Shown here: positions 48,987 to 53,683 of the stretch, piece by piece
How the letters are laid out: every line of letters begins with the position of its first letter
Position numbering within the stretch: position 1 is the stretch's first letter
Assembly: GCA_945904955.1 (NCBI GenBank)
Contig: CAMDPO010000003.1
Location: 1 to 64,000, forward strand
DNA: 64,000 bases
Source of the DNA: Rhizobium sp. Q54
Lineage (GTDB): Bacteria > Pseudomonadota > Alphaproteobacteria > UBA2966 > CAIVPW01
Reading direction: 5' to 3'
Translations under genes and position numbers: made by a program
The notes under the pieces: generated by a model
Database searches by the model: none
What the model was told of the DNA's origin: nothing
The model's input: the letters and a program-made list of their open reading frames with translations, nothing else

Positions 48987-49415
48987 TCAATTTGGCCGCT
49001 TGGAGTCGTCGCCCGGGCTCCAGGCTTCGTAGTCACCGGTGCCGCGCGGGCGCTTGGTGCCGGCGGGCGAACTGAGGCTGCCGGGCGGGCGCCAGGCGTT
49101 GGGGGTGCCGGTCAGATTGGCGATGTGCGGCGCCTCCCAGCGGTGGCGGCGGCGGTCGGCCTGGGGTGGTGCTGCGACGGTGTGGTGCAGCCAGGCGTGC
49201 CATTCGGGCGGCACCTTGGAGGCCTCGACGGCGCCGTTGTAGAGGACCCAGCGGCGGCGGCCGCGGCTACGGCTGGCTTTGATCGTGCCGCGCTCCTGGA
49301 AGTAGCGGTTGCCGTTGGTGTCGGTGCCGACCAGCTCGCCGCGGAAGCGCGTGAACAGGGAGGTGCCGAGGGGCTCGTTGGCCCACCAGGAGAACAGACG
49401 GGAAATGAGGCTCAT
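48987..49415 (-). CDS. NADH:ubiquinone oxidoreductase 17.2 kDa (NDUFA12/B17.2-like) subunit
   Basis: LVGTDTNGNRYFQERGT...RRRWVLYNGAVEASKVPPEWHAWLHHT. Confidence 0.92.
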   Translation of the reverse strand: MSLISRLFSWWANEPLGTSLFTRFRGELVGTDTNGNRYFQERGTIKASRSRGRRRWVLYNGAVEASKVPPEWHAWLHHTVAAPPQADRRRHRWEAPHIANLTGTPNAWRPPGSLSSPAGTKRPRGTGDYEAWSPGDDSKRPN

Positions 49416-49506
49416 GGGCTGTCTTTATGGCCCGCCGGGCGGCTTCCGTCCATACGGCCCCTCCCTGCCCGGCCGAACCCGGTGAAACTATATTGTGTGT
49501 GTGGGT

Positions 49507-49558
49507 CACATTTCGGTCACAAAATGTGGTTGACGCTTTGCGAGGCCGGATGTCTAGA
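49507..49558 (+). promoter_or_regulatory. Putative sigma70-type promoter with upstream dyad, driving an intergenic RNA
   Basis: TTGACG (49530-49535) - 17 nt - TCTAGA (49553-49558); dyad cacattt/aaatgtg (49507-49513/49522-49528) and ggtcaca direct repeats just upstream. Confidence 0.65.
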
Positions 49559-49562
49559 TGTT

Positions 49563-49767
49563 GGGCCTCAAGAGGTTCCGGCCCCATCCTGTTGGGTCGG
49601 CGCCCCTAGGGCACCAGCGGAAGGCCTCATGGTCGATCGTCAGCGTCTCCTCAGCTCCGAGCCTCCTTCAGGAAATCAGCTCGGCGCCGGACGTCCGCCA
49701 GCAGCGCGATCGATTGCGGGGTCTTCCGCCTGGGTGCCCTAAGGATTCGAGCCCTGTCCCAGGGCTC
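49563..49767 (+). ncRNA. Candidate structured intergenic RNA upstream of nrdJ (family not identified; 6S-like rod is one possibility)
   Basis: Long-range pairings cctagggcacc (49605-49615)/ggtgccctaagg (49733-49744), ggaag (49619-49623)/cttcc (49723-49727), ggtcgatcg (49631-49639)/cgatcgatt (49707-49715), ccgagc (49657-49662)/gctcgg (49679-49684), plus 3' hairpin gagccct/agggctc. Confidence 0.5.
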
Positions 49768-49865
49768 CGCAAAGTAATCGCAAGGTACAGTTGGCCGCCA
49801 TTATTGGCGGCAGACCTGTTTCCATTTCCCCAATCCTCCCAGCACCTTCGGCGCGCCTAGGGTGA

Positions 49866-49881
49866 ACACCGTATCTAGTGG
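49866..49881. promoter_or_regulatory. Candidate NrdR box upstream of nrdJ
   Basis: acaccgtatctagtgg resembles recalled NrdR box consensus acaCwAtATaTwGtgt (about 12/16); followed by TTGACA at 49889-49894. Confidence 0.45.
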
Positions 49882-49972
49882 TTGTGTATTGACACGCTAC
49901 TAGGGGCGGGGAATCCTGTCGTCCGCAGCCTCCGGTCAACAGAGGCAGCACGGTTCGCTAGGGGGAAAGAAA

Positions 49973-52900
49973 ATGCGTATTGCGCGTCAGTACACTACCG
50001 CTGGTCGGGATGCTTACGAGTCGATTCCGTTCCGCACGGCGACGTCGGAGATTCGAAATCCCGACGGCTCGGTGGTGTTCAAGCTCGACGCGTTCGACGT
50101 GCCCGCCGCGTGGAGCCAGGTTGCCGCCGACGTTCTGGCGCAGAAGTATTTCCGCCGCGCCGGTATCCCGTCCCGCCTGCGTGCCGTCGAAGAGAACGAC
50201 GTGCCGTCGTGGCTGTGGCGCAAGGTTGCCGACACCGCGGCCCTCGAGTCCCTCCCCGCTGCCGAGCGCAGCACCGGCGAGAAGGACGCGCGCCAGGTGT
50301 TCGATCGCCTCGCCGGTACGTGGACGTACTGGGCGTGGAAGGGCGGCTATTTCGGCACGGCAGAGAGCGACGCCGAGACCGACGCGCACGCGTTCCACGA
50401 CGAGATGCGCTTCATGCTGGCCGCGCAGATGGGCGCGCCCAACTCGCCGCAATGGTTCAACACCGGATTGCACTGGGCCTACGGCATCGATGGGCCGGCC
50501 CAGGGCCACTACTACGTCGACTGGCGCTCGGGCGAGATGACGCGCTCGACCAGCGCGTACGAGCATCCGCAGCCGCACGCGTGCTTCATCCAGGGGGTCG
50601 AGGACAACCTGGTCGAGGACGGCGGAATTATGGATCTTTGGCTGCGCGAGGCGCGGCTGTTCAAGTACGGCTCGGGCACCGGCTCCAACTTCTCGGCCCT
50701 GCGCGGCGACGGCGAACGCCTGTCGGGCGGCGGCAAGTCGTCGGGCCTGATGAGCTTCCTCAAGATCGGCGACCGCGCCGCCGGCGCCATCAAGTCGGGC
50801 GGCACGACGCGCCGCGCTGCCAAAATGGTCGTGGTGGACATGGACCACCCGGACATCGAGCGCTTCATCGACTGGAAGGTGCTGGAAGAGCAGAAAGTCG
50901 CCAATCTGGTGACGGGCTCTCGCGTCAACCAGAAGCACCTGACTGCCATCATGAAGGCGTGCCACGCTATGGAAGGCGAGCGCCGCTTCCTGCCCTCCGA
51001 CAATCCCGAGTTGAAGAAGGCGATCCGCGCCGCGCGCCAATCGCAGGTGCCGGAGAACTACGTCCAGCGCGTCATCGACTTCGCCAAGCAGGGCTATAAG
51101 GACATCGAGTTCCCGACCTACGACACCGACTGGGACGGCGAGGCGTACTTCACCGTCTCCGGCCAAAACGCCAACAACACCGTGCGCGTCACCGACGACT
51201 TCCTGCGGGCGGTGCGCGACGACAAGGAGTGGACGCTGACGCGCCGCTCCGACGGCAAGGTTCACAAGAAACTGCCGGCCCGCGAACTGTGGGAGAAGGT
51301 CGCCGAGGCCGCCTGGCAGTCGGCCGACCCGGGCGTGCAGTTCCACACCACCATCAACGACTGGCATACCTGCCCGGCCGGCGGCGACATCCGCGCCAGC
51401 AATCCGTGCTCCGAGTACATGTTCCTCGACGACACGGCGTGCAACCTCGCCTCCCTCAACCTGATGACGTTCCGTCGCGCTGACGGCACCCTCGACACCG
51501 AGTCCTATGCGCACGCCACGCGCCTGTGGACGCTGGTGCTGGAAGTCTCGGTGATGATGGCGCAGTTCCCGTCGCGCCGGATCGCAGAGCTCAGCTATCG
51601 CTACCGCACGCTGGGTCTGGGCTACGCCAACTTCGGCGGCTACCTGATGGCCTCGGGCATTCCGTACGACTCGGAGGAAGGCCGCGCCATCTGCGGCGCC
51701 GCCACCGCGCTGATGACCGGCGTGTCCTATGCGACCTCTGCCGAGATCGCCTCCGAGCGCGGACCGTTCGCGGGCTTCGAGGACAACCGCGCGGCAATGC
51801 TGCGCGTCATCCGCAACCATGCGCGCGCCGCCGGCGCGCTCAGCGGCAAGTACGAAGGCCTGCACACCGAGCCGGTGGCGCTCGACGCCGACAACTGCGA
51901 GGACACCGAGCTGGTCGTCGCCGCACGCGAGGCGTGGAAGCGCGCCCTGGCGCTCGGCACCAAGCACGGCTTCCGCAACGCCCAGACCACCTGCATCGCG
52001 CCGACCGGCACGATCGGCCTGGTGATGGACTGCGACACCACCGGCATCGAGCCGGACTTCGCCCTTGTGAAGTTCAAGAAGCTCGCCGGCGGCGGCTACT
52101 TCCGCATCATCAATCGCTGCGTGCCGCTGGCGCTCGAGACGCTCGGCTACGACGAGGAGCGCGCCAACGCCATCGTCACCTATGCGGTCGGCCACGGCAC
52201 CCTCGAAAACGCGCCGGCCATCGACCACAAGGCGCTGATGGCCAAGGGCTTCCTGCACGACTCGATCGACGCCGTCGAACAGGTGCTCTCCACCGCCTTC
52301 GACATCCGCTTCGCCTTCAACAAGTGGGTCCTCGGCGAGGCGTTCCTCACCAAGACGCTCGCCATCGACCCGGCGAAGCTCAACGATCCGACCTTCGATC
52401 TGCTCAGCCACCTCGGCTTCACCGCCAAGGAGATCGAGACCGCCAACCTATTCTGCTGCGGCGCCATGACGGTCGAAGGTGCGCCGCACCTGAAGCCCGA
52501 GCATATGGCCGTGTTCGATTGCGCCAGCCCGTGCGGCGCGCGCGGCGTCCGCTCGCTGTCGTGGCAGAGCCACATCCTGGCAATGGCGGCGGCGCAGCCG
52601 TTCGTCTCCGGCGCCATTTCCAAGACCATCAACATGCCGAACGCGGCGACGGTCGACGACGTGCGCAACGCCTACCAGCTGTCGTGGACCAAGGCGCTCA
52701 AGGCCAACGCCCTGTACCGGGACGGCTCCAAGCTCTCGCAGCCGTTGGCCTCCGCCATCGCCGGCGCCGATATCGCCGACGACGACGAGCAGGAAGCCAC
52801 CCCGCTCGCCGCGGCTGCGACCACCCCTGCCCCGGCTCCCGCCGTGCCGGAGCGCGTCAAGGCGGCGGCCGAGAAGATGGCCGAGGCCTGGGTCGCGCGC

Positions 52901-53683
52901 CGCAAGCGCCTGCCGCAACGGCGCAAGGGCTACACGCAGAAGGCCACCGTCGGCGGCCACAAGGTCTACCTGCACACGGGCGAGTACGACGACGGCTCGC
53001 TGGGCGAGATCTTCATCGACATGCACAAGGAAGGCGCCGCTTTCCGCAGCTTGATGAACAACTTTGCCATCGCGATCTCGATCGGGCTGCAGTACGGCGT
53101 CCCCCTCGACGAGTTCGTCGAAGCGTTCACATTCACGCGCTTCGAGCCGAGCGGCATGGTCGAGGGCAACACGGCCATCAAGATGGCGACGTCGCTGGTC
53201 GACTACGTGTTCCGCGAGCTGGCGGTGTCGTACCTGAACCGCACTGACCTTGCGCACGTGTCGCCCGACAACCTCCGTCCCGACGCCATGGGCGGCGGCG
53301 AGCGCCCGCGCGAGGCCACCGCCGTCGGCGAGAGCCCGCGCGTGGATATGGCCAGCAACGGCTATGTGCGCGGCCACAAGCCGTACCTGGTGTCGACGGC
53401 GAAGATGCCGGCGGCGGCAGTCGGCGAGGCGCCGCGCATGCTGGCGATGGCCGGCGGCCATGCCGTCGCCCACAACCACACCACCATGACGGTCGCTGAG
53501 ACGGTGAGCGTCGCCGCCGGGTCGGGCGCGTCCGAGGCGGTCGGTGTCACGCTGCGGCGCATCGAGGCCAAGGTCAAAGGCTACGAAGGCGACGCGTGCG
53601 GCGAGTGCGGCAACTTCACCCTGGTGCGCAACGGCACGTGCCTCAAGTGCGTGACCTGCGGCGGTACCACCGGCTGCTCATGA
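49973..53683 (+). CDS. nrdJ: Adenosylcobalamin-dependent (class II) ribonucleotide reductase
   Basis: [36 protein letters not shown]-terminal Zn motif [28 protein letters not shown]. Confidence 0.96.

Follow-up and report, generated by a model that had tools for sequence, protein, structure and literature searches.

A candidate structured non-coding RNA behind a predicted NrdR-controlled promoter beside nrdJ in an alphaproteobacterial genus

The segment between nrdJ and a divergent NDUFA12-like gene (ndufA12) probably encodes an independent, genus-specific structured non-coding RNA of ~200-260 nt, which sequence comparison predicts to be transcribed from an NrdR-controlled promoter. It lies in the 64-kb stretch of DNA that we analysed, hereafter the window, which is contig C3 of an alphaproteobacterial genome of 2.38 Mb in 64 contigs. 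The original prediction of a structured RNA with its own promoter at this site is supported by orthologues in all five sampled genomes of the genus (the window's species, G000, and its relatives G001, G002, G003 and G004), by covariation and by conservation of the promoter. A covarying structure, the lack of a conserved reading frame and a conserved promoter of its own, by which an independent structured non-coding RNA is recognized, are all found in this segment (Table 1). The parts of this reading that derive from comparison are the conserved fold, the single orthologous locus, the NrdR-type operator pair and the separate promoter of nrdJ.

Table 1. Positions in the window of the candidate RNA, its predicted control elements and the neighbouring genes
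Feature	Position	Strand	Remarks
NDUFA12-like gene (divergent neighbour)	48987..49415	-	NF006040, 164.2 bits
NrdR box 1 AAACTATATTGTGTGT	49485..49500	+	Best single box of the window; conserved in five species and in G007
NrdR box 2 TCACAAAATGTGGTTG	49517..49532	+	32 bp from box 1, overlaps the -35; top-scoring pair in 64 kb
-35 of P1, TTGACG	49530..49535	+	TTGAC identical in 5/5 species
-10 of P1, CTAGAT	49554..49559	+	CTA(G/C)A(T/G) in 5/5 species; putative function
Proposed RNA	49563..49830	+	Fold z = -4.76, conserved structure; both ends predicted
5' hairpin	49573..49605	+	7 double changes vs 2.7 shuffled; another NrdR-box-like palindrome overlaps its inner stem
Rod (model R1)	49609..49739, ~131 nt	+	136.6 bits; 5/5 genus genomes; covariation
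Invariant junction strand AGCGTCTCCT	49642..49651	+	Same in five species though adjacent stems vary
Invariant junction strand AGCAGCGCG	49700..49708	+	Same in five species
3' hairpin AGCCCTGTCCCAGGGCT	49750..49766	+	From folding; similar hairpins in some relatives, not all
Terminator-like hairpin, then weak T-rich tail	49787..49819	+	Missed by standard scan
NrdR-box-like site of P2	49866..49881	+	Second-best single box in the window
nrdJ promoter P2: TTGACA, 17 nt, AATCCT	49889..49917	+	ATTGAC and GA(A)TcCT block in 5/5 species
nrdJ, B12-dependent ribonucleotide reductase (neighbour)	49973..53683	+	NF005736, 2096.8 bits

The + strand of positions 49558-49790 is predicted to fold with a minimum free energy of -112.8 kcal/mol, against a mean of -90.7 for shuffled sequences, and none of 200 shuffles folds as low; the opposite (-) strand has a z of -3.23. 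All the structural elements originally described are present, namely the rod, the 5' hairpin and the 3' hairpin, and the 5' hairpin and the rod both occur in all five species. The RNA is predicted to begin ~4 nt past the -10, near 49563, whereas the position of its 3' end is uncertain and could fall either after the 3' hairpin (49766) or at the terminator-like hairpin (~49826-49830). A conserved reading frame is unlikely because the gaps between species in this segment include lengths of 1 and 2 and are thus not multiples of three, which bears out the earlier statement that no credible coding sequence covers it. Searches of the segment for tRNA and tmRNA gave no match.

Pairing in the rod has been kept among relatives. 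In an alignment of the five species (A3), its 46 pairs are formed in 91.4% of cells, and nine of them have changed on both sides, compared with 3.4 in shuffled alignments, where none of 500 shuffles reaches nine, and with four at most when the partners are slid. Four of these pairs are in the middle stem, four in the apical stem and one in the outer stem, which is largely invariant (CCAGCGGAAGGC paired with CTTCCGcCTGG) and hence carries little covariation information. The 5' hairpin covaries as well, in a hand-registered alignment in which three of 2000 shuffles reach its number of double changes. G-U cells outnumber A-C cells on the + strand by 21 to 3, a bias that is partly built in, since the structure had been predicted for that strand. 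The sample consists of five related species, and the shuffles retain the shared ancestry in the signal; covariation support for the RNA structure is thus good, but not final. One drawn helix, GCGUCU/GGACGU, shows zero double changes in the five species and is broken in G003. Nevertheless, AGCGUCUCCU and the opposite strand AGCAGCGCG are identical in every species though this helix is unsupported, and therefore the junction is probably constrained in some other way, for example by a binding partner. To judge from this conservation, the junction is likely to be the working part of the RNA.

Both hexamers originally read upstream of the segment, TTGACG (49530-49535) and, after 17 nt, TCTAGA (49553-49558), are present, the -10 conserved across species being CTAGAT. 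The NrdR operators at this site had been overlooked, and the conserved element proves to be a tandem pair of NrdR boxes. The boxes were scored with fixed weights of our choosing against an NrdR-box consensus of which Rodionov and Gelfand (2005) are reportedly the source. By this measure the pair scores 34, whereas no other pair in the 64-kb window scores above 28, and its spacing is 32 bp in the window and 31 bp in the four relatives. Known NrdR sites consist of two 16-bp boxes separated by a spacer of 15-16 bp, which places them 31-32 bp apart, and box 2 may include the -35 (PMC2892513, PMC12051234); in its ATP- and dATP-loaded form, NrdR is a repressor (PMC12051234). The boxes at 49485 and 49517 obey this spacing rule, and the host genome carries an nrdR gene (TIGR00244, 171.3 bits, G000:C52:6792-7217). 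P1 thus resembles the NrdR regulon in the distance between its boxes, in the position of box 2 at the -35 and in its place beside nrdJ, but members of the regulon in the published accounts examined are protein operons, whereas here the box pair precedes a non-coding RNA. The dyad CACATTT/AAATGTG that had also been remarked upon is present in the window; it is not kept in G002, G001 or G003, and is thus incidental. Two GGTCACA repeats noted at the same time are also there, forming the direct repeat GGTCACA-TTTC-GGTCACA (49505-49521), which lies between the boxes and runs into box 2; G004 and G002 share it, and G001 does so roughly.

The rod occurs once per genome, at the same ndufA12/nrdJ locus, in each of the five genomes. 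By DNA search, three of the genus's four other genomes proved to contain the segment (86, 79 and 69% identity), and other genera gave no match. The G003 copy, more diverged and at the same locus, was located from nrdJ upstream regions and confirmed by pattern and by R1; its score of 87 bits (E 7e-15) is expected by construction, as G003 is one of the five sequences behind the model. Outside the genus, R1 gave zero matches, both with permissive filters in the order's 10 remaining genomes and with strict filters in genomes sampled from part of the class (386) and part of the phylum (399). A pattern scan of GTDB genomes returned 23 stretches, with a convincing R1 match solely in the four genus members, and the viral contigs, phage records and plasmid records searched contained no match to the segment. 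Two isolate titles, ErkenSummer (CAIVPW01) and K_Offshore_80m (VGER01), suggest that the genus inhabits freshwater lakes.

Comparison with Rfam, which included 6S RNA (RF00013) and the cobalamin riboswitch (RF00174), matched no family at the gathering score or at E<=10, apart from a snoRNA match that fell below threshold and lay on the opposite strand. The cobalamin riboswitch was rejected, as it was unmatched at either setting. The segment is like such riboswitches in its proximity to the gene of a B12-dependent enzyme, but here a separate promoter of nrdJ follows the RNA. 6S RNA was also rejected, with no match in 49400-49990 at E<=10.

The alternative that deserves most attention is that the rod belongs to a long cis-acting leader of nrdJ, in which transcripts from P1 passing through the rod tune nrdJ by attenuation or ligand sensing and P2 is an extra promoter. 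P1 does match the nrdJ promoter of the sister genera G005 and G007, the rod and nrdJ are on the same strand, a standard scan detects no strong terminator in the window, and long nrdJ leaders exist in other genera of the order. However, nrdJ has a conserved promoter of its own, P2, accompanied by NrdR-box-like sites. The best of these, in G001, score 33 and lie 31 bp apart at -56 and -25; those in the window are weaker. Terminator-like hairpins separate the rod from P2 in four of the five species (the window's, G004, G001 and G002), being weak in the window and unconvincing in G003, and given these two cases read-through from P1 into nrdJ is possible. In G002 and G003, moreover, one or two small protein genes intervene and the rod ends 0.5-0.8 kb ahead of nrdJ, and neither the cobalamin riboswitch nor any other in Rfam matches the segment. 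Because nrdJ has its own promoter, terminator-like hairpins lie between and other genes intervene in two species, an independent unit is favoured, and the leader envisaged in the original prediction as the alternative is less likely. The first intervening reading frame begins 34-37 nt past the rod and encodes 118 aa in G002 (L012) and 113 aa in G003 (L014), and G002 has an additional one of 56 aa; the 118-aa and 113-aa products are homologous (44% identity over 78 aa) and match nothing in Pfam, NCBIfam or PHROG. Their near-equal distance from the rod in two species would fit a 5' leader whose small protein gene was kept in G002 and G003 and lost from the window's species, G004 and G001. We regard this as improbable, since the three species that lack the reading frame still have the rod, with its pairing and promoter, and the reading frame has no match in the window's genome.

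Some bacteria carry two 6S RNAs, and the segment shares with 6S RNA (SsrS) a long rod, a conserved and less paired middle and a length of ~200 nt, so that a second, diverged 6S-like RNA binding RNA polymerase might be imagined. Against this, the segment is unmatched by the 6S model and its promoter bears NrdR boxes, and a canonical 6S RNA is found elsewhere, one per genome, in all eight genomes of the family (in the window's genome at G000:C32:3354-3512, 54.4 bits, at the zapA/5-FCL locus). The 6S-like architecture raised at the outset is accordingly not supported, and a second 6S RNA seems very improbable. It is harder still to believe that the segment is an inverted repeat acting at the DNA level only, as an operator array or the remnant of a mobile element, without any RNA function. 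The inner stem of the 5' hairpin does coincide with an NrdR-box-like palindrome, and the opposite strand folds well too, but there is a single copy per genome at an orthologous position, the phage and plasmid records searched lack it, and its stems have undergone compensatory changes while the junction bases stayed invariant.

If the segment is an independent RNA, as we favour, its control would follow from that of NrdR: loaded with ATP and dATP, the repressor would hold P1 off, and when dATP is low it would leave the tandem boxes, so that P1 and P2 would be active together, the one yielding the RNA and the other nrdJ. The RNA would then probably act in trans, through the invariant junction that the rod holds, AGCGUCUCCU opposite AGCAGCGCG. 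Trans-acting anti-Shine-Dalgarno sRNAs offer a comparison, having a regulated promoter and an invariant, partly unpaired stretch containing CUCCU as the segment does, but no conserved target of the segment was found and it has far more structure, the usual base-pairing sRNAs being much less structured. Among the five genomes, no conserved ribosome-binding-site target of AGCGUCUCCU was found. Its target matches are mostly inside coding frames, and the two that look like ribosome-binding sites (the first ahead of rpoC in G001, the second in G000) do not recur exactly at the same gene in other genomes. Pairing of the RNA with the start region of nrdJ was, in a crude test, no better than that of shuffles in any species. 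Since both tests of base pairing were negative, an mRNA is no more likely to be the partner than a protein. The whole of this proposal, an undescribed family of structured RNAs that are coupled to the dNTP sensor NrdR and act in trans, by which a shortage of DNA precursors would turn on the RNA together with ribonucleotide reductase, is put forward tentatively, at somewhat less than even confidence.

Regulated structured RNAs are well known as a kind; this family and its connection with NrdR appear to be new. Titles and abstracts on NrdR with small or non-coding RNA, a coverage outside which most subscription journals fall, reported no RNA under NrdR control, and the NrdR targets in the published accounts examined are ribonucleotide reductase operons. 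With a non-coding RNA behind an NrdR operator, the control of DNA-precursor supply would gain an RNA arm. A possible route for the birth of an RNA gene can also be seen here. G007 and G005, which represent sister genera, have a box pair of this kind with a TTGAC -35 directly before nrdJ and lack the rod, and this operator-promoter unit drives nrdJ directly, whereas in the window's genus the RNA lies behind that unit and nrdJ has another NrdR-type promoter. P1 is the counterpart of the ancestral nrdJ promoter, and it may still feed nrdJ.

A second ribonucleotide-reductase-like gene is present at G000:C14:37642-37938 (L032) and in most relatives, and the same box scoring found no clear NrdR box pair near it. 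The inner stem of the 5' hairpin (49573-49605) overlaps an NrdR-box-like position 31 bp past the box on the -10. Two nrdJ leaders from other genera of the order, L020 and L023, have hairpins at a similar place, for example GACCCAACATATTGGTGGGTC, and it may be that in nrdJ leaders an operator palindrome doubles as an RNA hairpin.
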